DNA from: Sphingomonas sp. LaA6.9
GTDB lineage: Bacteria > Pseudomonadota > Alphaproteobacteria > Sphingomonadales > Sphingomonadaceae
Reading direction: 5' to 3'
Length of the DNA: 48,975 nt
Assembly: GCF_022601895.1 (NCBI RefSeq)
Contig: NZ_JAKVIO010000033.1
Span: forward strand, 1-48,975
Positions 3,563 to 44,948 of the stretch are shown one piece after another. A program made the translations under genes and the position numbers. Within the stretch, counting starts at the first letter, position 1. Each line of letters begins with the position of its first letter. Under the pieces are notes generated by a model that did no database searches, was not told the DNA's origin, and saw only the letters and a program-made list of their open reading frames with translations.

Positions 3563-5181
3563 CAGCGCCCCTTGAACAAGCCGCCGAGCAGGCCGCGCAG
3601 CAATTGGCCGCCCAGATTGCCGGCCACCTTTCGGCCTATGGATGTCGCCGCCGACCGCGCGGCGGATTCGACTATCTTCTCGGCAAAGCTGGGCTTGGCG
3701 GCTTCGCGCGCCTGCCGCGCAGCTTCGCGTTCGGCGGCAACGCGCTGGCGTTCGGTTTCCTTGGCCTGCCGGGCGGCCTCGCGCTCAGCGGCCATGCGCG
3801 CCTTTTCGTCTTCCCTGGCCTTGGTGGCGTCGAGTTTGGCCTGTTCGGCAGCCGCCTTGGCCTCTGTCGCGGCGGCCGCGGCCTCGGCCGCCTTCGCACC
3901 GAGCAGTTCCTCGGCGGATTCGCGGTCGATCAGCGTATCGTATTTGTTGCCGATGGCGTCGGTTTCCCTGATCACGCCGCGCTCGATCGGGGTGACCGGT
4001 CCGACGCGCGAGCAGACGGGCTTGATCAGCGTGCGCTGTACGGGAGAGGGCGCGCCATCGGCCTGGAGCAGCGAAACCAGCGCCTCACCCACCTTCAGCT
4101 CGGTGATCGCTGTGACGACGTTGACATCGGGGTTCGCGCGGAAGGTTTCTGCCGCCGACCTGATCGCCTTCTCGTCGCGCGGGGTGAAGGCGCGCAGCGC
4201 GTGCTGGACACGGTTGCCGAGCTGACCCGCGACTCCGTCGGGAATGTCGATCGGATTCTGCGTGATGAAATAGACGCCGATGCCCTTCGAACGGATCAGC
4301 CGCACGACCTGTTCGACCTTCTCGACCAGCGCTTTGGGCGCCTCGTCAAAAAGCAGATGCGCCTCGTCGAAGAAGAAGACGAGCCGCGGCTTGTCGGGAT
4401 CGCCGATCTCGGGAAGCGTCTCGAACAGCTCGGAGAGAAGCCAGAGCAGGAAGGTCGAATAGAGCTTGGGGCTGGCCATCAGCTTGTCGGCGGCGAGGAT
4501 GTTGACGACACCCCTGCCCTGATCGTCGGTCTTGAAAAAATCGTCGATATCGAGCGCGGGTTCGCCGAAGAACCTGTCGCCGCCCTGCGAACGGAGCTGG
4601 AGCAGCGAGCGCTGGATCGTGCCGATGCTCGCCTTCGATACATTGCCATAGGTGGTCGTGAGTTCGTCGGCGCGCTCGGCGCAGTGCGCGAGCATCGCCT
4701 GAAGGTCGTCGAGGTCGAGCAGCAGCAGCCCGTCCTTGTCCGCGACATGGAAAGCGATGGTCAGCACGCCCTCCTGCACCTCATTGAGGTCCATCAGCCG
4801 CGAGAGCAGCAGCGGCCCCATTTCGGAAATGGTGGTGCGGATCGGGTGGCCCTGTTCGCCGAACAGATCCCAGAACTGGACAGGGTTGTCCTTGTACTGC
4901 CAGTCGGTGTCGCCGATCTCGGCGGCGCGCGCAGCAAAGGGTTCGTGCACCTTGGCGGTTGGCGATCCCGCCATCGCCATGCCCGAAAGGTCGCCCTTCA
5001 CATCGGCGACGAAGACCGGGACGCCGGCGCGCGAAAAGCCCTCGGCGATGCCCTGCAGGGTGACGGTCTTGCCCGTGCCGGTCGCGCCCGCGATCAGCCC
5101 GTGACGGTTGGCGCGCCTGAAATTGAGGATCTGGCGCTCACCGCCGCCGGCCCCGATGAAGATTCCCGTCTCGTCAGCCAT
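3562..5181 (-). CDS. HerA-like ATPase (DUF853 / YjgR family)
   Basis: This encodes 539 residues. [14 protein letters not shown] is the Walker A motif near residue 40 and [13 protein letters not shown] is Walker B near residue 270, both typical of the HerA/FtsK-like DUF853 (YjgR) family. The N-terminal [20 protein letters not shown] also fits. Residues about 430-510 form a charged Ala/Glu/Lys/Arg-rich coiled coil (repeated [10 protein letters not shown]-type blocks), and the C-terminus is glycine/leucine-rich ([17 protein letters not shown]). I chose the ATG at 5181 because GGAGG lies 6 nt before it; the longer frame adds an implausible 21 residues. The physiological role of YjgR-type proteins is not established. 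Confidence 0.9.
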
Positions 5182-5191
5182 GCAGCGCCTC

Positions 5192-5225
5192 CATATGCCC
5201 TGCCCTCTTAGCGGCAGGGCATATG
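5192..5225. repeat. 13-bp perfect inverted repeat in the DUF853 leader
   Basis: CATATGCCCTGCC (5192-5204) and GGCAGGGCATATG (5213-5225) are exact complements around an 8-base loop. On the minus strand the hairpin sits between the degP-like stop and the RBS of the HerA-like gene, ending just before its GGAGG. No T-run follows in the minus direction. It could be an mRNA-stabilising or attenuating hairpin, or a rho-dependent stop after the protease gene. Confidence 0.7.
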
Positions 5226-5260: not shown

Positions 5261-6799
5261 TCAGCGCGTCTTGAGCTTCACGCCCACATAACGCGCCGCA
5301 CCATTGCCGCGCTGGACGAGCAACAGCACCGGGCGATTGGCCGTCTGCGACGCACGCACCTGGGCGTTGAGCTCATCGGGCGTGGTCGTCGGGCGCTGGT
5401 TGGCCGACAGGATCAGGTCACCGCGCTGGATGCCCGAGTTGGCCGCATCGCTCGACGGATCGACCGCACCGACGACGACGCCGCGCACATTGGGTGCGAA
5501 GCCGAGTTGGCGCTGGATCTGCGGGGTCAGCGCCATCACTGCGATACCGAGCGAATCGCGCGTCGCCTGTTCGCCGGTATTGCTGTCGGGCTCGGTGACG
5601 GTATCGCCATTGGGGTCAGCGAATCCGGCGAGCTGCTCTTCTGGCGGACGCTGGCCAACGGTCGCGGTCACCGTCATGCGCTTGCCATTGCGATAGATCT
5701 CGATCGGCACGCGGGCGCCCGGCTTCTGATTGGCGACGAGATAGGAGAGCGTGTTGTCAGGGGTGACCGCGGTGTCCCCGACCTTGGTGACGACATCTCC
5801 CTGCTGGATGCCCGCCTTGGCGGCGCCTTCGCCGGGTTCGACGCGTGCGATCAGTTCGCCGACATTCTTGGGCAGCCCTAGCGACTGCGCGATGGCTTCG
5901 TCGATGGGCTGGAGGCCGACGCCGAGATAGCCGCGCTGGACGCGCGCGCCGGTCTTGAGCGTTTCGATGATTGGCCTGGCCTGTTCGGCGGGGATCGCGA
6001 AGCCGATGCCGACATTGCCCCCCGTCGGCGAGAAGATCGCCGAGTTGATGCCGATGACGTTGCCGTTCAAATCGAACATCGGGCCGCCGGAATTGCCGAA
6101 ATTGATCGCGGCGTCGGTCTGGATGTAGCGGTCATAGGCGCCGCCCTGCCCGGTGTTGCGGTGGATCGACGAGACGATGCCCGCCGTGACCGTGCCGCCA
6201 AGGCCGAAGGGATTGCCGATCGCGACAATCCAGTCGCCCACGCGCGTCTGCGTCGAATCGCCGAATTTCACGAAGGGCAGATTGGTCGCGTTGATCTTGA
6301 GCAGGGCAAGGTCCGACGCCGCGTCGCGGCCGATCAACTTGGCCTCATATTCCTTGCGATCGGGCAGCGTCACGGTGATCGATTCGACCACCGCACTGCG
6401 ATTGCCCGGCGCGACGACGTGGTTGTTGGTGACGATATAGCCGTCAGCCGAGATGATGAATCCCGAGCCAAGCGACTGCGCCTCGCGCGTGACAGGACGA
6501 CCATTGTTGTTGCCCCCGCCAAACTGGCCAAAAAAGTCCTGGAAGGGCGTGCCCGCGAAGGGGTTCTGGTTCTGGACCTGGACGGTCTGCTTGGTCGAGA
6601 TGTTGACCACCGCGGGGGCAAGCCGCGCGGTGAGGTCGGCGAAGCTCATCGGCGCACCTGGCCGCGGCGCCGCCGCAAGCATCGCGCGTTCGTCGTTCTG
6701 GGCGGTCTGGGCACCCACTGGCGTGTTCGTGCCCATCGTGATCGCCGCCCCGCCGACGAGCAGGGCGGTGGTGATGGCATAGGCGTAGCGCACGTTCAT
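5261..6799 (-). CDS. degP: DegP/HtrA (Do) family periplasmic serine protease
   Basis: This encodes 512 residues. A signal-anchor (about residues 5-22) is followed by a trypsin-like domain with His127 in TNNHVV, Asp163 in ASDLALLK and Ser237 in GNSGGP. Two PDZ domains follow (from about residue 285 with [11 protein letters not shown], and about 410-505 with [11 protein letters not shown]). A Gly/Asn-rich LA-like loop lies at about residues 80-105. The ATG at 6799 has GGAGG 7 nt upstream; the longer frame is not needed. It lies downstream of hflKC on the same strand, a common alphaproteobacterial arrangement. It degrades and chaperones misfolded envelope proteins. DegP is the family call; DegQ/MucD-type naming is possible. 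Confidence 0.95.
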
Positions 6800-6900
6800 A
6801 ATCCTCCGGTCTTCCTTCCAATTGGCGCGATTTCCCAGTCTCGCGCGGTTTCCCGCGACGCTGGCGCGCGATAGCTTAACGCAGATTGAATGGGCGACGT

Positions 6901-7767
6901 TCAACGACGACCCTGGAACTCCTTGAGATAGGTATTGTCAGGCGAAAGGATGATCGACGACGAGCCTTCAGGCGACGAACCATCGGTCCCGAAGGTCCGT
7001 TCATAGGACTGCATCGCACGATAGAAGTCGTAGAAATCGGCATCCTTGCCAAAGGCTGCGGCATAGGTCTTGGCGGCGTCCGCGTCCGCCTGCGCACGAA
7101 GAATCTGTGCCTGCTTCAGCCCCTGCGCCTGGATCGTGAGCGCTTCCTGACGCCGCGCAGTGCGCATCCGCTCGAGCGCGCTTTCGAGCGGCGCACCGCT
7201 GGGCAGATCGGCGCGCTTGATGCGCACATCGACGATCTCCGCACCATATTGGCGCGCGACCCGGTTGAGACCCGCCTGGATATTGTCCATCACCTGGCCG
7301 CGCTCGGCGCTCAGCAGCGTGGCGAAGGGTCGCTTGCCCAGTTCGTTGCGCAGCGCCGAACCCAAGATCGGGCGCAGTGCGGAAGCGACATTCTCGCTGT
7401 TCTTGGCGGTGATCACCATCCGCAGCGGATCAACGATGCGGAAGCGTGCAAAAGCATCGACCTGAAGCCTTGCCTGATCGGTCGACAGCACCTGCTGGCG
7501 CTCCATCGGGACCGAAAGGATCCGTTTATCGATCCAGGTGATGTTCTCGACAAAGGGAATCTGCCAGATCAGACCCGCGCCATCCGCGCCGAAGCCTTCC
7601 TTCGAATCATAGCGATTCACGATGCGCACCGGCTCGCCGAAGCGCAGCACGACACCCTGTTTGGTCTCGGGCACGATCGAGAAGGTGCTGGTGATCAGAA
7701 TCAGCAAGGCGATTGCGATCAACGCGGTCTGGACGGGATAGCGGCCGATACGATCGATCAGGTTCAT
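6901..7767 (-). CDS. hflC: HflC, protease modulator
   Basis: This 288-residue SPFH/band-7 protein has one N-terminal membrane helix (about residues 12-28, TALIAIALLILITSTFSIV). The band-7 core starts at KQGVVLRFGEPVRI. The C-terminal part is the coiled-coil RMRTARRQEALTIQAQ. HflC with HflK forms a large inner-membrane cage around FtsH and modulates its proteolysis. The ATG at 7767 overlaps the stop of hflK by 4 nt (ATGA), so the pair is coupled. The degP-like gene follows about 100 bp downstream on the same strand. Confidence 0.96.
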   Translation of the reverse strand: MNLIDRIGRYPVQTALIAIALLILITSTFSIVPETKQGVVLRFGEPVRIVNRYDSKEGFGADGAGLIWQIPFVENITWIDKRILSVPMERQQVLSTDQARLQVDAFARFRIVDPLRMVITAKNSENVASALRPILGSALRNELGKRPFATLLSAERGQVMDNIQAGLNRVARQYGAEIVDVRIKRADLPSGAPLESALERMRTARRQEALTIQAQGLKQAQILRAQADADAAKTYAAAFGKDADFYDFYRAMQSYERTFGTDGSSPEGSSSIILSPDNTYLKEFQGRR

Positions 7768-8937: not shown

Positions 8938-9906
8938 ATGACCGATACCGACAGGCTTCTGGCCGCCATTACGCCCATTTCCGGAAAACGTACTGCCGCC
9001 CCGAGACTCGCCGAGGGGCGCGCGAGTCTGATCCTCGACGTGACCGGACTTTCCGGCGAAGAGCGGTTGCGCATGGAGGCCGATATCACGGCGGCGTTGC
9101 TTGCGCTTCCCGACGTCAACGAAGTCCGCATCGCGATGACCAGCGAGAAGAAGGATCGCCGGCTGATTGTCGTCGGCAGTGGCAAGGGCGGGGTCGGCAA
9201 GTCAACAGTGGCCGCAAATCTGGCGATTGCACTCAGCCATACCGGCATCAAGGTGGGGCTCATCGACGCCGATATCTATGGCCCCTCTCAGCCGCGGCTG
9301 ATGGCGACGGAAGGCGAACGCCCCCATGCCGAAGACCAGAAACTGATCCCCGTCGACAGTCGATATGGCATTCCGATGCTATCGCTCGGTCATCTGGTGA
9401 AACCCGGCCAGGCGATCGCCTGGCGCGGGCCGATGGCGGGCAATGCGCTCGGCCAGCTGATCGATGCGCAATGGGGTGATGCGGAGCTGCTGATCGCCGA
9501 CCTGCCGCCGGGTACGGGCGATGTCCAGCTCTCCATGATCCAGAAGCACAAGCCGTCTGGCGCGGTCATCGTCTCGACCCCGCAGGACCTTGCCCTCATC
9601 GACGCGACGCGTGCGATCGATCTGTTCAATCAGGCCAATGTGCCGATCATCGGGATCATCGAGAATATGGCGGGATATCAATGCCCCCATTGCGGTGAGG
9701 TCTCGGACCCCTTTGGCAGCGGCGGCGCCGAAGCGGCGGCGGGTTCGATGGGCCATCCCTTTCTCGGCCGCATTCCGCTCGATATCGCGATCCGCAAGGC
9801 ATCCGATGCGGGTACGCCCCCGGCCGCAGGTGACGCGCCGGAGGGCAAGGCGTTCCACCAAATCGCGGCGCGCCTGCGCGACTGGTTGAACCAACCCGTC
9901 AGCTGA
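8938..9906 (+). CDS. apbC: Mrp/NBP35 family Fe-S carrier P-loop ATPase
   Basis: This encodes 322 residues. A short N-terminal MIP18-like part (residues about 1-70) precedes a deviant Walker A, GKGGVGKS, near residue 82. DADIYGPSQPRL and IADLPPGTGDVQLS are the family signatures. CPHCGEVSDPFG near residues 248-251 is the CxxC that binds the bridging Fe-S cluster. The protein loads iron-sulfur clusters onto apo-enzymes in the cytoplasm. The ATG at 8938 starts MTDTDRLLAAI; the upstream open frame is proline-rich and runs antisense to hflK, so I exclude it. A CoA-binding protein gene follows after 31 bp, probably in the same operon. Confidence 0.95.
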   Translation: MTDTDRLLAAITPISGKRTAAPRLAEGRASLILDVTGLSGEERLRMEADITAALLALPDVNEVRIAMTSEKKDRRLIVVGSGKGGVGKSTVAANLAIALSHTGIKVGLIDADIYGPSQPRLMATEGERPHAEDQKLIPVDSRYGIPMLSLGHLVKPGQAIAWRGPMAGNALGQLIDAQWGDAELLIADLPPGTGDVQLSMIQKHKPSGAVIVSTPQDLALIDATRAIDLFNQANVPIIGIIENMAGYQCPHCGEVSDPFGSGGAEAAAGSMGHPFLGRIPLDIAIRKASDAGTPPAAGDAPEGKAFHQIAARLRDWLNQPVS

Positions 9907-27069: not shown

Positions 27070-27143
27070 TGGAGCGGGTGAAGGGAATCGAACCCTCGTC
27101 GTAAGCTTGGAAGGCTTCTGCTCTACCATTGAGCTACACCCGC
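27070..27143 (-). tRNA. tRNA-Gly (TCC), CCA encoded
   Basis: The minus strand folds as a complete tRNA: acceptor GCGGGTG pairing with CACCCGC, D-arm GCTC..GAGC, anticodon loop CTTCCAA giving anticodon TCC, and the T-arm with GGTTCGATTCC. The discriminator base is T and a CCA is encoded (27070-27072). Its 5' end faces the prophage on the right, and its 3' end faces the EF-hand gene. The gene is intact. Confidence 0.95.
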
Positions 27144-35766: not shown

Positions 35767-36120
35767 ATGGGCAAGAAATACGGCCGTCCGTGGTGGCGCC
35801 GCGACCCGTGGATAGGTCGTATTGTGGCGGGCATTTTTCTGTGGGTTCCCGCATGGCTTGCGCTCGGACTCGTGGTCGGCGATCGAGAGTTTGCGCTTGC
35901 ATCGCTGTGGGTCGCGTTGGCGCCATTTGCAATCTGGGTTGGCGGTGCGCTCGCGGGCCTAGCTGCGACGATTGAAGGGCCGTGGATAGCCGTCGCGGCA
36001 TGCTTCATATTTGGGATCGGGCTACAACAGGACGGCGGCGTCGGGGCGCTGGTCGGACTGGGGGCATTCGCTGGATTGCGGCTCATCGGCCATATCGTTT
36101 TGGCCGTTTCCGGCGACTAA
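35767..36120 (+). CDS. small membrane protein convergent with the repressor
   Basis: This encodes 117 residues. A basic N-terminus (MGKKYGRPWWRRDPWIGRIV) is followed by about four hydrophobic segments (AGIFLWVPAWLALGLVVGD, AFALASLWVALAPFAIWV-like, LAATIEGPWIAVAACFIFGI, GALVGLGAFAGLRLIGHIVL). The ATG at 35767 follows GGAGG by about 5 nt. Its stop overlaps the repressor's stop region by 4 nt, with the genes convergent. Position in an immunity region suggests a superinfection-exclusion membrane protein, but this is inference. Confidence 0.72.
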   Translation: MGKKYGRPWWRRDPWIGRIVAGIFLWVPAWLALGLVVGDREFALASLWVALAPFAIWVGGALAGLAATIEGPWIAVAACFIFGIGLQQDGGVGALVGLGAFAGLRLIGHIVLAVSGD

Positions 36121-36467
36121 GCGGCCTTCTCGTCCTTTTCCCCTCGGTACCCCAGAAGGCTTTCCGCTACGCGCTGGAAATCTCGTTGGCCACGCTGATC
36201 TGCGCGTCGAAATCCTTCGATTAGCCGCCGCTCCTCTTCCGTGAGAACATCCGGGTTATCGGTTCGGGGCAGAAGATCTGCAGGCGCAACGCCAAGGTGC
36301 GGCGCAAGACGGCGCATCCAATCCTGATCGAGGCCGCGCGAACCGAGCTCCACCTTGTTCAAGGCGGAGGGAGTAACGTTCGCCAGGCGCGCGAGTTCGG
36401 CCTGCGACATGCCAATGGCTTCTCGCAGTTCACGAATTCGGTTGGGTGTGTCGTTCTCGTTTGCCAC
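36117..36467 (-). CDS. phage repressor (XRE family), CI-like, no cleavage domain
   Basis: This encodes 116 residues. The helix-turn-helix is IRELREAIGMSQAELARLAN followed by VTPSALNKVELGSRG. The C-terminal 60 residues (PADLLPRTDNPDVLTEEERR, LIEGFRRADQRGQRDFQRVA) are helical and lack the Ser/Lys peptidase domain of self-cleaving CI repressors. I choose the GTG at 36467 because an upstream ATG would read through the operators. TATATT (36479-36474) lies just before the GTG, so the message may be leaderless, as for lambda cI. Confidence 0.85.
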   Translation of the reverse strand: MANENDTPNRIRELREAIGMSQAELARLANVTPSALNKVELGSRGLDQDWMRRLAPHLGVAPADLLPRTDNPDVLTEEERRLIEGFRRADQRGQRDFQRVAESLLGYRGEKDEKAA

Positions 36468-36473
36468 CCGCCG

Positions 36474-36550
36474 AATATAGACAATTTGGCCACTTGCCAT
36501 ATTGGCGTATTGCCACAACGCCACGACTTAGGATAGCCATTTTGGAAATT
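36474..36550. promoter_or_regulatory. right operator cluster at repressor/cro promoters
   Basis: Sites: ACAATTTGG (36481-36489, one mismatch), CCATATTGG inside GCCATATTGGC (36497-36505), and CCATTTTGG (36537-36545). The last is embedded in ATAGCCATTTTGGAAATTT (36533-36551), which nearly matches the complement of the second left site. The first two lie between the putative -10 of the repressor and the rightward promoter of the cro-like gene. This is an OR-like region. Confidence 0.72.
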
Positions 36551-38092: not shown

Positions 38093-38214
38093 TCGCGGCT
38101 CCCGTCATACATGAGAGCGGCGTCTGGTACGGCTCGCGAGGCCCCCAGCGGAATGTCATCGGGCATTCCCGTGCGGATCGAGGATCGCGCCGCGTGCAGG
38201 GGGCGGTCCATTGA
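38089..38214 (+). CDS. 41-residue coupled small protein
   Basis: The ATG at 38089 overlaps the upstream stop (ATGA) and the TGA at 38212-38214 overlaps the TTG of the primase (TTGA). The product begins MIAAPVIHESGVWYGSRGPQ and is basic after that. Tight coupling on both sides supports translation. It may simply be a translational bridge to the primase. Confidence 0.5.
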   Translation: MIAAPVIHESGVWYGSRGPQRNVIGHSRADRGSRRVQGAVH

Positions 38215-39347
38215 CCAGGGCCGCCCCAACTGCCGAGCAGCGCGCGGTGGCGCTCGCCGAAGTGCGCGAGATCTGCGCGCGATTGAACGACCAGGCCGAC
38301 AGCTGGGCGACGCAATTGCTGCCCAATGGCAAATATGAGGGCAAGACGCGCTGGCGCGTCGGTGACTTCGCCAACGGCCCCGGGCAGTCGCTGTGCATCT
38401 ATGTGGCCGGCACGTACCAAGGCAAATGGTGGGATTTTGCGGCGTCGCCAGGCATGCGCGGTTATTCGGGCGATATCCTCGACCTGATCGCTCAGGTCAA
38501 ATATGGCGGCGACAAGGGCCGTGCGATAGCGCATGCGCGCTCGGTGCTCGGGATGGACAATCTGGATCCCGAGCGCTTTGCGACCGAAACCGCGCGGATC
38601 CAGCGACGCCAGAAGAGCGCGAGCGAGCAGGCGCTGCGCGAAGCGGAAAAGATGCGGCGCAAGGCCGTGGCGCTGTTCATGGATCCGCGCGCGGTGCCGA
38701 TCGTCGACACGCCGGCGGAATGGTATCTAGCCGGGCGCGGCATCGATCTTTCGTGCCTTGAGATCCATGGGCAGCAATATGTGCCCAAGGCGCTGGCGTT
38801 CCATCCTGCAGTCTGGTGCACCGAGGCCGGATGCGACCTGGCCGCGTTGATCGCGCGCGTCGTTCTCAACGGCCAGCATGTGGCGACGCACCGTACCTGG
38901 CTCGTTGAGGAGCGCGGTGACTGGGTGAAGGCGCCGCTCGAGGCGCCCAAAAAGGTGCTCGGCACCTATGCCGGCGGCCATATCCCGCTGTGGAAGGGTG
39001 AATGTCGCGAGACGCTGATGCGGATTGCGCCCGGGACCGACATTTACAGCGCAGAAGGGATCGAAAACGGCCTTTCGGTTGCTTGCGCGCGGCCGACGCT
39101 GCGGGTGATCGCTTCGATCTCCGTCTCGAACCTAGGCGGCCTGGTGCTGCCCGAGCAGATGGGGCGCCTCGTCATCATCGGCGAGAATGACGCACCGGGC
39201 AGCAAGGCCGAAGCGTCGACCAACGCTGGGATCGTGAAGCACCAGGAGCTGGGCCGCGAAGTGGCAATGATCAGGATGCCCGCGGACGTGAAGGATGCGA
39301 ACGACATCCTGCGCGGCGCCGGCGATGTGGGGGAGATGGCGGCGTGA
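38211..39347 (+). CDS. Toprim-domain DNA primase-like protein
   Basis: This encodes 378 residues. The N-terminal half includes a DUF7146-like region: QLLPNGKYEGKTRWRVGDFA, then YQGKWWDFAASPGMRGYSGD and ILDLIAQVKYGGDKGRAI. The C-terminal Toprim part has IYSAEGIENGLSVACARPTL near residue 285 and LVIIGENDAPGSKAEAS near residue 325, the acidic metal-binding loops. No N-terminal zinc finger is visible, so it depends on a partner or recognises a different signal. It probably primes phage DNA together with the ATPase two genes downstream. The start is a TTG. Confidence 0.86.
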   Translation: MTRAAPTAEQRAVALAEVREICARLNDQADSWATQLLPNGKYEGKTRWRVGDFANGPGQSLCIYVAGTYQGKWWDFAASPGMRGYSGDILDLIAQVKYGGDKGRAIAHARSVLGMDNLDPERFATETARIQRRQKSASEQALREAEKMRRKAVALFMDPRAVPIVDTPAEWYLAGRGIDLSCLEIHGQQYVPKALAFHPAVWCTEAGCDLAALIARVVLNGQHVATHRTWLVEERGDWVKAPLEAPKKVLGTYAGGHIPLWKGECRETLMRIAPGTDIYSAEGIENGLSVACARPTLRVIASISVSNLGGLVLPEQMGRLVIIGENDAPGSKAEASTNAGIVKHQELGREVAMIRMPADVKDANDILRGAGDVGEMAA

Positions 39348-39682
39348 ATTGTATCGAGCTCTTGTTTGCGCTGCTGGTTGCGCACGCCTTGGCCGACTAT
39401 GCTTGGCAGGGCGATTTCATGGCGGCCGCGAAGAACCGGGCCAAGCCTATTCCGGGAGTGCCGTTCTATCAGCCGCTGATCTCGCATTCTGTCATTCATG
39501 GCGGCTTCGTCGCCCTGATCCTGCTCAATCCGTGGCTGGGATTGGCGGAGGCCATTGCGCATGGGTTGATCGATGACGCCAAGTGCACCGGCAAGATAAG
39601 TTTCAATGCTGATCAGGCCTTGCATGTCGCCTGCAAGATCCTCTGGCTCGCGATCGCGATCCTGGTGCCGGGCCTCTGGTAA
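39344..39682 (+). CDS. DUF3307 membrane protein
   Basis: This encodes 112 residues with GTG start. FALLVAHALADYAWQGDFMA, then HSVIHGGFVALILLN and EAIAHGLIDDAKCTGKISFN, is the DUF3307 pattern of His/Asp pairs inside or next to hydrophobic helices. The family is a small integral-membrane protein of unknown function that occurs in phages and mobile elements. It overlaps both replication genes by 4 nt and 1 nt, so its level is tied to replication. Confidence 0.82.
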   Translation: MNCIELLFALLVAHALADYAWQGDFMAAAKNRAKPIPGVPFYQPLISHSVIHGGFVALILLNPWLGLAEAIAHGLIDDAKCTGKISFNADQALHVACKILWLAIAILVPGLW

Positions 39683-41610
39683 TGGCATCTCGCGGCAAGA
39701 CACCCAAGAAAGGGCTCGAGCAGCTGGCCGCCCTGGTCGACGGGGCGACAGTGGTTCCGTTCGCGCGCGGCGAGGCGCCGCCGGCGGATGATCCGCGCTT
39801 TGACGGCGCACCCGAGCCCGAGGAACCGCAATCAGGCGGTCGGGATCCCGACGATGGGCTCTATGGACTGCCGGACGATTGCCCTGTGATCCCGCTGGGC
39901 ACGTGTAATGGCATGTATTTCTTTCTCGATGAGCTGAAGCAACTTCGCGAGTTGAAAGCGAAAGAACTTGAGAAGGGCAATATCGAGGCGCTGTTCGGCC
40001 GCAAGGTCGCGCAGGTCGACAAGATCTGGCCCCGCTATTCGAACAAAAAAGACATCAACGGTGATTTCATCATCACCGGATGGAAGCCCGAGATCGCGGC
40101 CAGGTCATTGCGCCTGGCGTGCGCGCGGCTTGGGATCTGGTCGGCGGAGGGCAAGGTGCGCGGCGAAGGCGCCTGGCGCGACGACGACGGCAATCTGATC
40201 CTGCACTGTGGCGACAAGATCTGGATCGCCGGCGCCGACGAAGGGCATCAGTGGCACGAGCCCGGCAAGATAGCCGACCTGGTCTATCCTGCAGGCCGCA
40301 AGCTCCCGCGCCCGGCGGTGACGCCTGCCGATCCAAGCGAGTTCGAGCAGCTCGAGGCGCTCATCGCCACCTGGCGCTGGGAACGGCGCGATATCGACGC
40401 GCGGCTGCTGCTGGGGTGGATCGCGGCGGCCCCGATCTGCGGCGCGCTCAAATGGCGCCCGGCGGCCTGGGTGACAGGTGGACGCGGCACTGGCAAGTCC
40501 GCGCTGCAGACGTTGATCAAGTCGCTGATGGGCGGCGATGCCGGCCTGATCGAGGCGGCGAGCGCGACGGAAGCCTATATCCGCCAGCTGCTCGGCAAGC
40601 GCACGCTGCCGGTGGCGCTCGATGAGCTCGAGGCCGATGCCGACGATCGCAAGCAACAGGCGATCATCCAGTTGGCGCGTTATGCGAGCTCGGGCGCGAA
40701 GATGGGACGCGGCGGATCCGATCACAACCCGCATGACTTCATAGCGCGATCGTCGTTCCTGTTCTCCTCGATCCTGGTGCCGCCACTGAGCCCGCAGGAT
40801 CGCAGCCGCATGGCGATGCTCGAGCTCAATCCCTTCGAGGATAGCGATGTCGAGCCGAAGCTGGATCCGCGTGCGTTGGGCCAGCTCGGCCGCGCGATCC
40901 GCCGGCGCATGGTCGACCAATGGCACCGCCTCGCGCGCACGATCGATATCTACCAGGATTGGCTGGGCCATTACGGCCACGACGCCCGCATGAAGGATCA
41001 GTTCGGCACGCTGCTCGCCTGCGCGGACTGCCTGCTCTACGATCACGAGCCAAGCGACGAAGAAGCCGAGATCTGGGCACGCAAGCTCGACGCGCGGCAC
41101 CTGGCCGAAAAGGCCGACGACACTGGCGAGGGCGAGCTCTGCGCCCGCTATATCGCCACGTCGCAGCTGCAGGGCCGTGGGGGCGATGAGCCCGAGAGCG
41201 TGGCCATGTGGATCGAAAAGACGCTGATCGCCGTGCCAATGCTGGTGGGCGAGCAGGACAGCGCCTGCGGCAAGGCGCAGCGCCGTCTCGAGATGAGCGG
41301 CATGCTGGTCGTTGCGGCCAATCTGGACGACGGCAAGGCGGTGAAGCGGCACACTGGCGGTCCCGGGCCCGCCGGCGCCAAACAGGATGTGGAGCGCGCG
41401 CTCTATGTCGCCGTGGCCAATAGCCATCGCGGGCTGGACGGGATGCTGCGCGATATGCGCTGGAAGGGCGGCGTGTGGAGCCAGGCGCTCGGTCGCGTCC
41501 AGGGCGCACACAAGCGCGTCAAGGTGCGGATCGGCGGGCGTGGCGAATGGGCGACGCTCGTGCCGCTGGCGGTGTTCTCCGACCAGGCGATCGAGGAGCC
41601 CGACGCATGA
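39682..41610 (+). CDS. primase/helicase-type P-loop ATPase (phage replication)
   Basis: This encodes 642 residues. A long N-terminal half (GRKVAQVDKIWPRYSNKKDI, DGNLILHCGDKIWIAGADEG) precedes a P-loop: WVTGGRGTGKSALQTLIK near residue 267, with a possible Walker B in LPVALDELEADADDRKQ. RSRMAMLELNPFED is a later motif. This resembles the D5-like or DnaB-like helicase half of phage replication proteins; primase and helicase here are separate genes. The ATG shares one base with the DUF3307 stop (TAATG). Confidence 0.82.
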   Translation: MASRGKTPKKGLEQLAALVDGATVVPFARGEAPPADDPRFDGAPEPEEPQSGGRDPDDGLYGLPDDCPVIPLGTCNGMYFFLDELKQLRELKAKELEKGNIEALFGRKVAQVDKIWPRYSNKKDINGDFIITGWKPEIAARSLRLACARLGIWSAEGKVRGEGAWRDDDGNLILHCGDKIWIAGADEGHQWHEPGKIADLVYPAGRKLPRPAVTPADPSEFEQLEALIATWRWERRDIDARLLLGWIAAAPICGALKWRPAAWVTGGRGTGKSALQTLIKSLMGGDAGLIEAASATEAYIRQLLGKRTLPVALDELEADADDRKQQAIIQLARYASSGAKMGRGGSDHNPHDFIARSSFLFSSILVPPLSPQDRSRMAMLELNPFEDSDVEPKLDPRALGQLGRAIRRRMVDQWHRLARTIDIYQDWLGHYGHDARMKDQFGTLLACADCLLYDHEPSDEEAEIWARKLDARHLAEKADDTGEGELCARYIATSQLQGRGGDEPESVAMWIEKTLIAVPMLVGEQDSACGKAQRRLEMSGMLVVAANLDDGKAVKRHTGGPGPAGAKQDVERALYVAVANSHRGLDGMLRDMRWKGGVWSQALGRVQGAHKRVKVRIGGRGEWATLVPLAVFSDQAIEEPDA

Positions 41611-41791
41611 GCGCTGCGCTCGCCGCCTCGACCTGTTTGCCCATAGGCGCTGCGCCGGCAGCTTCGCGATCGCGGAGCGGTCGTGGAGCGGTGCGCCGGT
41701 GCTCTGCATCATCTTCCCGCATCGAGAGATCGTCTATCGACGTCTTTCGTTCGTCTTATTTTTTTGTTTTGCCGGCGCCCGTGCCCGCTGA
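41611..41791 (+). pseudogene. possible broken or frameshifted short coding stretch
   Basis: After the ATPase stop, the frame in which cat-gag-cgc is read (through RRLDLFAHRRCAGSFAIAER and WSGAPVLCIIFPHREIVYRR) has high GC in third positions, as real genes here do, but it has no start codon. The ATG at 41607 opens a different frame with a weaker composition. A single-base slip would join them. This may be decayed coding DNA or a coincidence. Confidence 0.3.
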
Positions 41792-41845
41792 TATCAATCA
41801 GGACGGGCGGGCCATGCTGTTCGCTGCCCTCGGGCTCGGGGGGAT

Positions 41846-42112
41846 GTTCCCAAGGTCAAATTGGGAACGCGGTTGGGAACGCGGGTTGGGAACGTCCAAC
41901 CCATTGAAATCCCGCCACTATCGGCAAATGTTCCCATGTTCCCAACGTCCACGCGCGCACGCGATTTCGCGTATGCGCACTCGCGCACGCATTAGCGACT
42001 ATCATCATTTCTTGGGAACATTGGGAACATTTGATTATATCATTGATATTCAGTGCGTTGGACGTTCCCAATCGCGTTCCCAATCGCGTTCCCACACTCA
42101 AGCGCTGGGAAC
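41846..42112. repeat. 12-copy octamer array with exact two-fold symmetry; candidate origin
   Basis: Twelve copies of TTGGGAAC or its complement: nine perfect, three with one mismatch. Positions: 41846(-), 41861(+), 41873(+), 41886(+), 41930(-), 41938(-), 42012(+), 42021(+), 42064(-), 42076(-), 42088(-) and 42105(+). The six symmetric pairs share one centre at 41978-41979. Longer matches also mirror: TTGGGAACGTCCAAC (41886-41900) and its complement (42057-42071), and AAATGTTCCCA (41926-41936) and its complement (42022-42032). An AT-rich stretch lies at 42029-42052. A replication origin fits best; pac or partition site are alternatives. Confidence 0.85.
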
Positions 42113-42370
42113 ATCGGCCCGCCTCGCCTGCCTGAAACCGCAGATTTCTGCCATTTCGAATAAAATAGTGGGTGGATATGCGCTCTCGGCATCGACGGGT
42201 GCCGATCTGCGGTCATTTGAAGCCGCTGCGCTGGAAAAACTTTCGGCCTGGTGCGCGTCGGCCGCGCCGATCGGCGCGCTCGAGCTCCTCGACCAGGGCG
42301 AGGCCGGCGAGCGCGGACTGACGGGAGAGAATGGCGGTTTTCTGCGCCTCTCCGGGGGTGCGCAACATGC

Positions 42371-42394
42371 CGTCAGAATGGCAGCGTCAGAATG
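42371..42394. repeat. direct repeat CGTCAGAATG, twice, shared with prophage left end
   Basis: CGTCAGAATG occurs at 42371-42380 and 42385-42394, 14 bp apart. The same 10-mer is present in complement at 27186-27195, next to the palindrome at the left end. Confidence 0.6.
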
Positions 42395-42486
42395 CGAGGC
42401 GCAACGCCTTGGAAATGCGTCGATTTCTGGCGCTGGTCGGAAGCTTCTCAGGCTGCGCGCTGTCGACCTGGGCGCGATCGCGGCAT

Positions 42487-42510
42487 CGAAGGGGGGCAGG
42501 CCCCCCTTCG
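42487..42510. repeat. 11-bp perfect-arm hairpin, GC-rich
   Basis: CGAAGGGGGGC (42487-42497) and GCCCCCCTTCG (42500-42510) are exact complements with two bases between them. The stem is extremely stable. No T-run follows. It lies about 270 bp before the terminase small-subunit gene. Confidence 0.7.
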
Positions 42511-42783
42511 CCGGCGCCGAGATCCGCTGCCCGCTAGCGCAGCCGATTTTCTGGATTTCGGTCGAGCTTCGCTCACCCCCTCGACCTGCATGCCATGCGG
42601 TTGCCGGGGACGGCCGCGAAATGGTGGCGGACGCCATGGGGCACGGGGCGCGGGTAGCCACCCCCGGCGAAGGCTCAGCGCGCGAAACGCGTAGACCGTC
42701 GGATTTGGGGCTCGGGGCTAGGGATCTCGGTTCGCCGTCGATTTCGAACGTGGAACTAACGACGCTATGGGCGGGGTCGCGGC

Positions 42784-43395
42784 ATGTCAACGGCTGACAA
42801 TGGCGATGCAAAAATCGTTGCGGACGTCGTCGCGAGCGCGAAGTCGCTGCTGGCGGACCAGGCGCGCGAAGCCGAGCAGCTCGACATGCTCGATCCAGTG
42901 TCGCCCGAAGAAATGATCGAGGCTCGCGAGGAGATGGGCCCCCAAGCGGGGAATATGTCGGTGCTGCGCCTGGCGCGCGAGCGCAAGCGTGGGCGGCCGC
43001 CGGGAGCTAGAAACAAGCGAACCGATGATTTCGCGCGATACATCCTCGGCTTTGGACAGCATCCCGCGATCACGATGATGCAGATCCAGGCGACGCCGGC
43101 GGAAGTGCTGATCGAGGCCTCGCGCCAGCGCAAAGTTCATAGCTTTCGCAAGGATGGCACGCCGAACATCGTGATCGAGCGTCTGTCGTACGAAGCGGCT
43201 CAATCGCTTCGGATCCGATGCGCGGAAGGGTTGCTGCCGTATCTCGAGAGCAAGAAACCCGTTGCGGTCGATCTGTCCTTCAACGGCGTCGCGGATCTGA
43301 TGATCGAGGGCGTGACGCATACCCGCGAAGAAATGGGCGACATCCTCGAGGCGGATTTCCTGCCTGTCGATGGTGATGAGGCAGACGAGGCATGA
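42784..43395 (+). CDS. putative terminase small subunit
   Basis: This encodes 203 residues. After an acidic N-terminus comes a basic AT-hook-like region (RLARERKRGRPPGARNKRTD), then a helical region (ILGFGQHPAITMMQIQATPA, EVLIEASRQRKVHSFRKDGT). The gene is directly before the large terminase subunit and overlaps it by 4 nt, which is why I call it the small, DNA-recognising subunit. The sequence itself shows no certain family signature. Confidence 0.7.
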   Translation: MSTADNGDAKIVADVVASAKSLLADQAREAEQLDMLDPVSPEEMIEAREEMGPQAGNMSVLRLARERKRGRPPGARNKRTDDFARYILGFGQHPAITMMQIQATPAEVLIEASRQRKVHSFRKDGTPNIVIERLSYEAAQSLRIRCAEGLLPYLESKKPVAVDLSFNGVADLMIEGVTHTREEMGDILEADFLPVDGDEADEA

Positions 43396-44948
43396 TGCAA
43401 GCGCCGATCAAGCCGCGTAGGCTGGTATCGCCAGGCCCGATCGCCGATGGGTTCATGCGCTCGCGCGCGTTCATCTGCGGCATCATCGGCCCGGTGGGAT
43501 CGGGCAAGACGATGGCGGCGCTGCAGAAGGGCATCCGCGTCGGCGCAATGCAGCGCGGCATCCGCGACGATCGCGGCGTCACCTGGCGCAAGGCGCGCAT
43601 CGGCGTCATCCGCGAAAGCTATCCCAGCCTGCAGTCGACGACGCTCAAGAGCTGGTTCAACATCGTCCCCGAAAGCGAGGGCAATTTCAGCTGGAAAGCG
43701 CCCTATACGCACAGTTTTCGCAAGGTTCTGCGCCGCGAGGGCAATGTCCGCGGCGGGCGTCCGATCGACATACTCGATATCGAATTCGAATTCCGCGCCA
43801 TCGGCGATCAGTCGGTCGAAGAGGCCTGCCGCGGCTGGGAAGTAAACGCGGTGATCGTCGATGAGGCGGATCTCCAGCCTGAGGATCTCGTGTCGTTCCT
43901 GACGGGTCGTATCGGCCGCTTCTCCGATCTCGATCCAGCGCTGGTCGTGGATCCGCAGATCATCCTCTCGCTCAACATGCCCGATATCGACAACCACGTT
44001 TATCGGCTGCTGCTCGATCGCGATCTCGACGGGCTCAGTGAGGAGGACGCGGCGGATCTCGCCGAGGCGCTCAACGGCCGCGAGCTGATCGAGGCATTCG
44101 TTCAGCCTGGCGGCCGTGCGCACAATGCGGAGAACCTGCACAACCTGCCCGGTGGCCGCGGTTACTATGTGCTGCAGGTAGCGTCGAACAAGCACAAGCC
44201 CGGCTATGTCGACCGGATGGTCGACAACAAGCCGGTGCCACTGCAGCACGGGCAGCCGGTCAATGCGGGCTTCGCCTATACCGAGCATGTGCGTTCGCTC
44301 GAATGGGATCGCCGGCGCAAGCTGATCCTCGGCGTCGACCAGGGCCTATTTGCGGCCGCGGTAGCGCTGCAGCGCGATGAGCTCAACCAGATGCGGACGC
44401 TCGCCGAGGTGGTCAACATCGCGAAGGGCGGCAAATCGCTGCTCAAGGTCGGCCCGACTGCGTTCGGCAAGCGCGTTAAGCAGATGCTGGCCGACAAGTT
44501 CCCCGACATCGAGCCGCACCAGATCCGCGTGGTCGCTGATCCGGCGGCGTTCGCGGCGAGCGATCGCGAGGATAATGAGCAGGACTGGCTGCTGGCCTTC
44601 CAGAAGGCGCTCGGGCTCAAGGTCCACCGCGCGAAGTCGAACCGCCAGGGGCTTCGCAACGAGGCGATCTGGCAGGCGCAGGACCGCCGCGACGGCTATG
44701 CGGTCGATCCGGGCTGCAAGCATCTGATCAAGGCGCATGTCGGCGGCTATCGCTACCAGAAGGCAGAGATCGGCACGGGCGAGACGCGCGGTCATCTCGA
44801 GATCCAGAACACGATCTACACGCACGTCGCGGACGCCGAGCAATATGCCGCGCTCGAGGGCGAGCACGTGATCTCCGACATCCGCGGCAAGCCCAGGCGG
44901 AAGACATCGGTACGGATCGACGGCGATTACAACGAACTAGGAGGTTGA
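43392..44948 (+). CDS. terminase large subunit (packaging ATPase/nuclease)
   Basis: This encodes 518 residues. The ATPase Walker A is GPVGSGKTMAAL at residues 33-40 and Walker B is VNAVIVDEADLQ near residue 158. The nuclease half has an Asp in LILGVDQGLFAAAVAL near residue 315 and a later Asp in IRVVADPAAFAASDRE. The enzyme cuts and pumps phage DNA into proheads. Its length and motifs fit podovirus and T7-like packaging motors. It overlaps the small subunit by 4 nt. Confidence 0.9.
   Translation: MMQAPIKPRRLVSPGPIADGFMRSRAFICGIIGPVGSGKTMAALQKGIRVGAMQRGIRDDRGVTWRKARIGVIRESYPSLQSTTLKSWFNIVPESEGNFSWKAPYTHSFRKVLRREGNVRGGRPIDILDIEFEFRAIGDQSVEEACRGWEVNAVIVDEADLQPEDLVSFLTGRIGRFSDLDPALVVDPQIILSLNMPDIDNHVYRLLLDRDLDGLSEEDAADLAEALNGRELIEAFVQPGGRAHNAENLHNLPGGRGYYVLQVASNKHKPGYVDRMVDNKPVPLQHGQPVNAGFAYTEHVRSLEWDRRRKLILGVDQGLFAAAVALQRDELNQMRTLAEVVNIAKGGKSLLKVGPTAFGKRVKQMLADKFPDIEPHQIRVVADPAAFAASDREDNEQDWLLAFQKALGLKVHRAKSNRQGLRNEAIWQAQDRRDGYAVDPGCKHLIKAHVGGYRYQKAEIGTGETRGHLEIQNTIYTHVADAEQYAALEGEHVISDIRGKPRRKTSVRIDGDYNELGG

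Follow-up and report, generated by a model that had tools for sequence, protein, structure and literature searches.

Which protein reads twelve copies of a short DNA word set out as a mirror image of each other, and what would be gained from such a layout? The question is raised by the stretch of DNA analysed here (the window), 48,975 bp of Sphingomonas sp. LaA6.9 corresponding to a complete contig of a 95-contig genome, in which an array of this kind is located between the replication genes and the terminase genes of a phage. A preliminary description of this DNA had suggested that a symmetric complex of initiator proteins binds here, at an origin of the phage, with a pac or partition site as alternatives. 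Taking into account that the layout is conserved, that it accompanies a helicase gene, and that the word appears to track the C-terminal domain of this helicase, the origin is still the best-supported reading. We consider it quite likely that the array is a phage replication origin; its reader would be an initiator helicase that loads itself onto the DNA as two hexamers facing each other head-to-head.

The array and its genetic surroundings

The coordinates of the array, its octamers, and the neighbouring genes are collected in Table 1. Nine of the twelve octamers are exact (TTGGGAAC/GTTCCCAA), those starting at 41930, 42088, and 42105 have one mismatch, and a 7-bp core, TGGGAAC (complement GTTCCCA), is kept in all of them. 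The strand order is (-)(+++)(--)|(++)(---)(+), with six octamers on each strand, and the successive steps between core centres are 16, 12, 13, 43, 8, 75, 9, 42, 12, 12, and 18 bp. Each octamer on the left has a partner on the right, the core centres of the six pairs adding up to 83956-83958, which gives a common centre at 41978-41979 within about one base. Thus, the twelve octamers in 267 bp, the strand pattern, and the pair sums of the preliminary description were reproduced, as were the 12-bp spacing of copies 9-11 and the 12 and 13 bp of copies 2-4. The mirroring that it had noticed in the flanking letters was also found, the arms 41886-41908 and 42049-42071 being 91% complementary across 23 nt.

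Of the 16 copies of the core in the whole window, 12 are inside the array, and the clustering of octamers reaches a Poisson -log10 p of 28.3 under an order-1 Markov background, a value uncorrected for the number of words. When the array's own gaps and strands were shuffled, a complete six-pair mirror with sums within 2 was obtained in 3 of 1,000,000 shuffles, a test on the cautious side, given that the gaps being shuffled already form a near-palindrome; the symmetry that had been claimed therefore withstands comparison with shuffled arrangements.

Table 1. Features of the window related to the array (strand. = no strand assigned).
Feature	Position	Strand	Basis or remark
Cro/C1-type regulator	36117-36524		
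DNA primase gene (Toprim_3, DUF7146; phrog_510)	38211..39347	+	Pfam and PHROGs matches
642-aa P-loop (SF3/AAA+-like) putative helicase, proposed self-loading initiator	39682..41610	+	phrog_21086, phrog_35358
Helicase C-terminal domain, residues 527-642, proposed iteron reader	41260..41607	+	Word-tracking columns, partial Mantel
Putative specificity segment, residues 614-625 (KVRIGGRGEWAT)	41521..41556	+	Columns enriched for change
Mirror-symmetric 12-octamer array, candidate origin of replication	41846..42112	.	267 bp
Octamer 1	41846..41853	-	Exact
Octamer 2	41861..41868	+	Exact
Octamer 3	41873..41880	+	Exact
Octamer 4	41886..41893	+	Exact
Octamer 5, inner left pair	41930..41937	-	1 mismatch, core intact
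Octamer 6, inner left pair	41938..41945	-	Exact
Central gap, alternating purine-pyrimidine tract	41946..42011	.	Symmetry centre 41978.5; alternation 0.73
Octamer 7, inner right pair	42012..42019	+	Exact
Octamer 8, inner right pair	42021..42028	+	Exact
AT-rich right spacer, possible unwinding element	42029..42063	.	A+T content
Octamer 9	42064..42071	-	Exact
Octamer 10	42076..42083	-	Exact
Octamer 11	42088..42095	-	1 mismatch, core intact
Octamer 12	42105..42112	+	1 mismatch, core intact
Small RGRPxGARNKRT protein, TerS-like by position	42784..43395	+	No Pfam family above cut-off
Terminase large subunit (TerL)	43392..44948	+	phrog_979, weak for the window protein (E 0.0022)
Head-tail connector PF12236	45823-47487		Pfam

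The array begins 235 bp past the stop codon of the helicase gene, in agreement with its earlier placement just after the primase and helicase genes. Regarding the 642-aa protein, phrog_21086 is of unknown function and phrog_35358 is a DNA primase family, and sub-threshold matches were obtained in its family with TIGR01613, the P4-family primase C-terminus (30/71 members), DUF5906 (16/71), and DUF927 (7/71). It has been labelled here as a putative divergent SF3/AAA+-like helicase because a P-loop is present and these P4-family, DUF5906, and DUF927 models were matched only below their cut-offs. A gene for DUF3307, a phage membrane protein family, occupies 39344-39682, between primase and helicase. 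Downstream, phrog_15261 (function unknown) is matched by 22 of 36 aligned relatives of the TerS-like protein, the protein of the window not being among them, and phrog_2 by 4 of 5 aligned members of the TerL family. Nine open frames scanned with the aim of locating the left end of the prophage gave no useful match.

An AT-rich stretch adjoins the octamers, as previously described, the right spacer reaching 70% A+T, compared with 50% in the left spacer and 35% in the whole window. No turn of GC skew across the window coincides with the array, and a tRNA/Rfam search of the window gave no match near it, the sole one being a tRNA-Gly at 27070-27143. Coding function had been named in the preliminary description as something that would refute its reading; a 440-aa open frame (41475-42797) does span the array. 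It begins within the helicase gene, out of frame with it, and has BLASTP matches in 13 of 118 other array loci; the stretch is not clearly coding.

Conservation of the layout in related phages

Relatives were collected by alignment-based searches and comprise at least 80 virus loci (among the matches listed of 296 relatives) and 64 genome loci. As the helicase was used as bait, it is present in every locus of this set by construction. Arrays were detected with a word-blind cluster scan followed by refinement of the sites, the window being included. Of the 167 loci with a gene for a helicase relative, 139 turned out to have a two-strand array, and 119 non-redundant arrays were left after removing 20 ahead of the symmetry test; hence the layout, whose lack of conservation in related prophages would have refuted the preliminary description, is not peculiar to the window. 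In the one-mismatch scan of array-negative loci (19/28), a paired layout was recognised by eye in L036, L068, L090, L113, L125, L143, L156, and L182.

An opposed pair of inner blocks is present in 97 of the 119 arrays, the other 22 being excluded from the meta-profile, the spacing, and the counts per half. When arrays were aligned on their inner blocks, the bins from +80 to +116 contained 153 minus and 5 plus sites, while the left bins from -100 to -68 were more mixed (75 plus, 33 minus); the outer sites took no part in the alignment, and their strands there are those predicted from the window. Taken one by one, the mirror was significant (p<=0.05) in 42 of 119 arrays and non-significant in 77, with a combined p of 6e-30, in which related arrays are counted as independent. 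Inner steps measure 8-9 bp in 203 of 211 cases, the spacer to the next opposed block 40-45 bp (41/84 on the right, 33/68 on the left), and the outer same-strand steps 11-12 bp (137/242). Among the 97 arrays, 6+6 is the commonest number of sites per half (14), followed by 5+6 and 6+5 (11 each). The centre is also particular in its sequence, with a mean purine-pyrimidine alternation of 0.67 versus 0.50 after shuffling (97 arrays) and a longest alternating run of 18.5 on average versus 6.3, and the right spacer is more A+T-rich than the left one in 50 of 70 arrays. The gene order primase-helicase-array-TerS-TerL was observed in 78 of 119 loci; the helicase and the array are 1-5 kb apart in some.

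The words, compared for 117 of the 119 arrays (as in the residue/word tests and identity-pair comparisons below), fall at a distance of 0.2 into 51 groups by average linkage, 61 by complete, and 30 by single linkage, the number ranging from 10 to 77 when the cut-off is varied over 0.15-0.25; the 119 arrays have between them 80 different seed 7-mers. To judge by this comparison, the grammar, that is, the strand order, the inner 8-9 bp steps, and often spacers of about 42 bp, is kept while the word changes. One case is L010, found via the helicase (55-57% identical), where a layout nearly that of the window is built with TTGGGAAGT. A host factor was also contemplated as the reader of the octamers and set aside, because the sphingomonad loci alone bear many different words.

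With TerL as bait, at least 78 new loci were obtained, a set that is not independent since several contigs are shared with the helicase set. For the 39 having at least 6.5 kb upstream, the helicase was encoded in 33 (30 with an array, 3 without one by the scan), and 3 of the 6 without a helicase nearby show some two-strand repeat. Two loci have the array apart from the helicase gene: L214, with a textbook mirror array at 6796-7042 and the helicase elsewhere in the same virus record, and L012, with an array at 4945-5192 by the terS-like/terminase region. Therefore, the array and its proposed reader are separable. L214 is one of the 6 loci without a helicase nearby, as are L259 and L267, in which the replication proteins are of the AAA_25 type and the repeats are laid out differently. 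Scans with single proteins yielded no relatives, no match was obtained when phage records were searched at DNA level with the array as query, and in the open-access papers searched, among the matches listed, no such array was described in phages of this kind.

Which protein tracks the word

Whole-protein Mantel tests over 81 loci did not separate the four proteins (r 0.18-0.21). Domain-level tests were then restricted to the 65 loci in which the word had been oriented and none of the four proteins was missing; r with the word was 0.245 for the helicase C-terminal domain, 0.141 for the remainder of that protein, 0.158 for the primase, 0.205 for TerS, and 0.202 for TerL. The domain retains a partial r of 0.158 (p 0.002) once the other four are removed. 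Conversely, after removal of the domain, neither the primase nor the remaining part of the helicase correlates with the word any longer (r about zero), with residual values of 0.106 for TerS (p 0.006) and 0.081 for TerL (p 0.044). None of these global correlations is strong (r about 0.1-0.25), and the nearest-neighbour word distance (0.261 for the domain versus 0.252 for the rest of the helicase) does not favour the domain.

At the level of single columns, 12 of the top 30 word-tracking positions of the helicase lie in the C-terminal domain, which has 90 of the 564 columns (Fisher 0.001, Mann-Whitney 8e-5). The best values of TerL (V186 0.286, smoothed peak 0.093) are near those of the helicase (R616 0.295, smoothed peak 0.104), and the smoothed helicase peak is found near residue 545, not at 614-625. 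Pairs with a C-terminal identity of at least 60% have the same word in 47 of 63 cases, against 290 of 6786 for all pairs. In pairs with at least 55% C-terminal identity (19 with different words and 50 with the same word), the five columns most enriched for change are K614, R616, G621, W623, and T625, with p from 2e-4 to 3e-3, uncorrected. Words of the type [CG]TT-N1-3-AA are present in all 8 loci with W623 (the window, L010, L031, L048, L049, L057, L111, and L162) and in 4 of 109 without W, and AGAAC is found in 11 of 13 words with T623 and in 0 of 104 without T, these tests being uncorrected for shared ancestry or for how many columns were compared, and the patterns for W and T having been selected with the data in view. 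The most difficult case for the domain as reader, and at once a natural pair for studying the change of specificity, is L093/L096, with near-identical helicases whose C-terminal domains are 94% identical and whose words are nevertheless different; 3 of the 7 domain differences are at positions 616, 617, and 621.

It has to be noted that no natural swap isolates the C-terminal domain, because no pair joins a similar domain to a dissimilar rest (0 pairs with C-terminal identity of at least 50% and the rest below 45%); in pairs with a similar rest and a C-terminal identity below 40%, the word is still the same in 9 of 39. Considering this evidence together with the discordant pairs described below, the C-terminal domain tends to be a better guide to changes of the word than TerS, TerL, the primase, or the other parts of the helicase.

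Other functions for the array

The fixed neighbourhood formed by the array and the terS-like gene could reflect a dual site, serving both as origin and as start of packaging, in which the helicase would read the octamers and TerS another nearby sequence; we regard this as unlikely.

A packaging site alone, of the pac or cos type, at which the downstream TerS-like protein would bind the octamers to start packaging, finds some support in position and covariation: the array precedes the terS-like gene in the prevailing gene order, stays by it where the helicase is encoded elsewhere (L012, L214), and its word retains the residual correlation with TerS and TerL and the word-tracking TerL columns mentioned above. 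However, the discordant cases follow the helicase. L010 and L031 keep the TTGGGAA-type word of the window with helicases 54-55% identical to its own, despite TerL proteins of only 39-41% identity, and L011 has the word CGGAACCG despite a TerL 78% and a TerS 66% identical to those of the window. Likewise, pairs with TerS at least 50% and C-terminal domains less than 40% identical have the same word in 4 of 75 cases, whereas those with domains at least 50% and TerS less than 40% identical do so in 27 of 58. Moreover, L229, L251, and L261 encode TerL and lack an array, with no helicase match in the whole record, although these records may be fragments. Because the discordant pairs follow the helicase C-terminal domain, reading by TerS is not preferred; the pac site already named as an alternative in the preliminary description is thus kept as a rival, at a low level of probability.

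Clusters of octamers of such size are known at centromere and operator regions, and a Cro/C1-type regulator is encoded in the window, so that a site for partition or for the control of transcription might be envisaged, with a repressor of the phage or a ParB-like protein binding to it. Nevertheless, homologues of this regulator were found in 47 of the 119 array loci, compared with 97 to 104 (depending on the query) for the primase and all of them for the helicase used as bait, and the words appear to track the helicase domain, which makes this reading very improbable. Finally, coincidental repeats or coding sequence, for which the 440-aa frame could be adduced, are scarcely credible, since they would already be contradicted by the 97 of 119 arrays in which the grammar is conserved although the word is another, and by the rarity of the mirror among shuffles.

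Likeness to known origins

Iteron plasmids of the RepA type and lambda O origins contain several short repeats beside an AT-rich stretch, these being direct repeats at which host DnaB is loaded. The array departs from this one-strand arrangement, having six octamers on each strand and being accompanied by a phage helicase.

Closer parallels are provided by the origins of PICI/SaPI elements, known here by descriptions. According to published work, these origins have two opposed iteron sets (PMC6092414, PMC9894130), the C-terminal domain of SaPI Rep recognises downstream iterons, with apparent binding as two hexamers (PMC7581432), and the opposed repeats direct two head-to-head rings (PMC9894130). 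As in them, the window presents an initiator helicase gene, as proposed here, directly followed by iterons, and opposed sets flanking a central region, with a full mirror in the window and inner opposed blocks in most relatives. Their specificity resides in the C-terminal domain of the helicase, to which the covariation of word and domain would correspond here, and their centre is AT-rich, while here the centre has a mean of 42% A+T versus 35% for the loci and the AT-rich part is the right spacer. The differences are also clear. Homology with Rep (DUF927 or P4-type primase C-terminus) is limited to the sub-threshold matches, and a PDB search up to E 10 found no chain named SaPI Rep among 25 matches. 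PICI/SaPI are satellites, whereas the arrays are found in full phages with TerL and portal-type genes (in the window, TerL and the PF12236 connector), each half here has mixed strands (1+3+2), and the word differs between most phages.

Concerning P4, the ori has, according to its annotation, six octamers of the TGTTCACC type in the order (---)(+)(--), with start-to-start steps of 10, 11, 22, 43, and 10 bp. Each crr copy has (++) with a step of 9 bp and, 43 bp beyond, (-)(-)(+); the right half of the window array reads (++) with a step of 9, then 43, and (---)(+), absolute word polarity not being comparable because homology between the words is not established. In the P4 record (L278), the stretches 4291-4590 and 9310-9413, which hold ori and crr, have steps of 9-11 bp and 43 bp, and the corresponding values in the window are 8-9 and 43-44 bp by octamer starts. 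The window array thus looks like a pair of P4-like halves turned towards each other within one unit, whereas in P4 some 4.7 kb separate ori from crr, whose two copies are directly repeated. Searches of the P4 alpha protein against the family profiles gave no C-terminal match (E 0.44) and a match with the whole profile of P-loop size only (E 0.03), and TIGR01613 stays below cut-off for the helicase. As no homology to P4 alpha was detected outside the P-loop, the array was filed neither as P4-type nor as PICI-type, although, by analogy, it may work like the origins of both. In view of the opposed iteron sets that the cited PICI/SaPI papers report and of the half-array spacing common to P4 ori and crr, the earlier remark that no origin with exactly this mirror layout was known needs correcting, as there are precedents for the layout.

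In eukaryotic viruses, the repeats of SV40 in opposite orientation direct two head-to-head hexamers (PMC9894130), and the DNA-binding domain of SV40 large T antigen and papilloma E1 is N-terminal (PMC7581432). Compared by description, this position differs from that of the array's putative reader, which is C-terminal. The sites of T antigen are pentamers.

Proposed mechanism

Based on these analogies and on the covariation, we infer that the adjacent 642-aa P-loop helicase would be the initiator of the array. Its C-terminal domain would bind the octamers, with a specificity largely determined by residues 614-625, and the six octamers on each side would seat one ring, so that two hexamers could be loaded head-to-head. 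Melting would take place between or beside the rings, probably at the AT-rich right spacer or at the centre with its purine-pyrimidine alternation, and both forks would be primed by the product of the upstream primase gene.

On balance, and by a narrow preference, we also favour a more general picture, in which a widespread phage family, found mostly in Alphaproteobacteria since the genome loci point there, would use a fixed 6+6 mirror platform for loading two helicase rings. Each lineage would have a private word, rewritten in all copies along with a helicase reading segment of about 12 residues, making up a natural lock-and-key code with dozens of pairs that could set which co-infecting phages use each other's origins. 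If this is true, bacterial phages use the strategy of two facing rings that SV40 is known to follow and that has been suggested for the islands of staphylococci, and the 6+6 sites in one compact origin make the stoichiometry of the rings directly testable. In addition, dozens of natural word/reader pairs with one layout would constitute a data set on how the specificity of an initiator evolves when about twelve sites have to change together.

Distant phages and additional repeats

The helicase matches 23 phage records, and the two close ones (L008 and L009) have arrays. Eight of the other 21 were examined, with 27-31% identity and longer primase proteins. In Bdellovibrio phage phi1422 (L275, JQ177062), a 6+6 mirror with the word GGTAACA is located at 6345-6651, directly after the primase gene; 11 sites were obtained by the scan (p 0.0005) and one by eye, its centre is AT-rich by eye, and the annotated features displayed for this stretch include no origin. 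This mirror suggests that the design reaches beyond Alphaproteobacteria. Among the other distant records, L270, L271, L274, and L277 gave no convincing array, L272 has one that is nearly one-strand, and L273 and L276 have weak two-strand arrays.

Other types of repeats were seen far upstream of the helicase gene, where one-strand clusters with a layout unlike that of the origin arrays occur in L125 (106-436, ACCTGTC x23), L044 (1644-1862, CGTAGCC x16), and L032 (2953-3148, AGCAGCA x21). Lastly, the match to the helicase in L020 (G223 C1 3022891-3023175) is short and interrupted by four stops, so that it seems to be a decayed copy.
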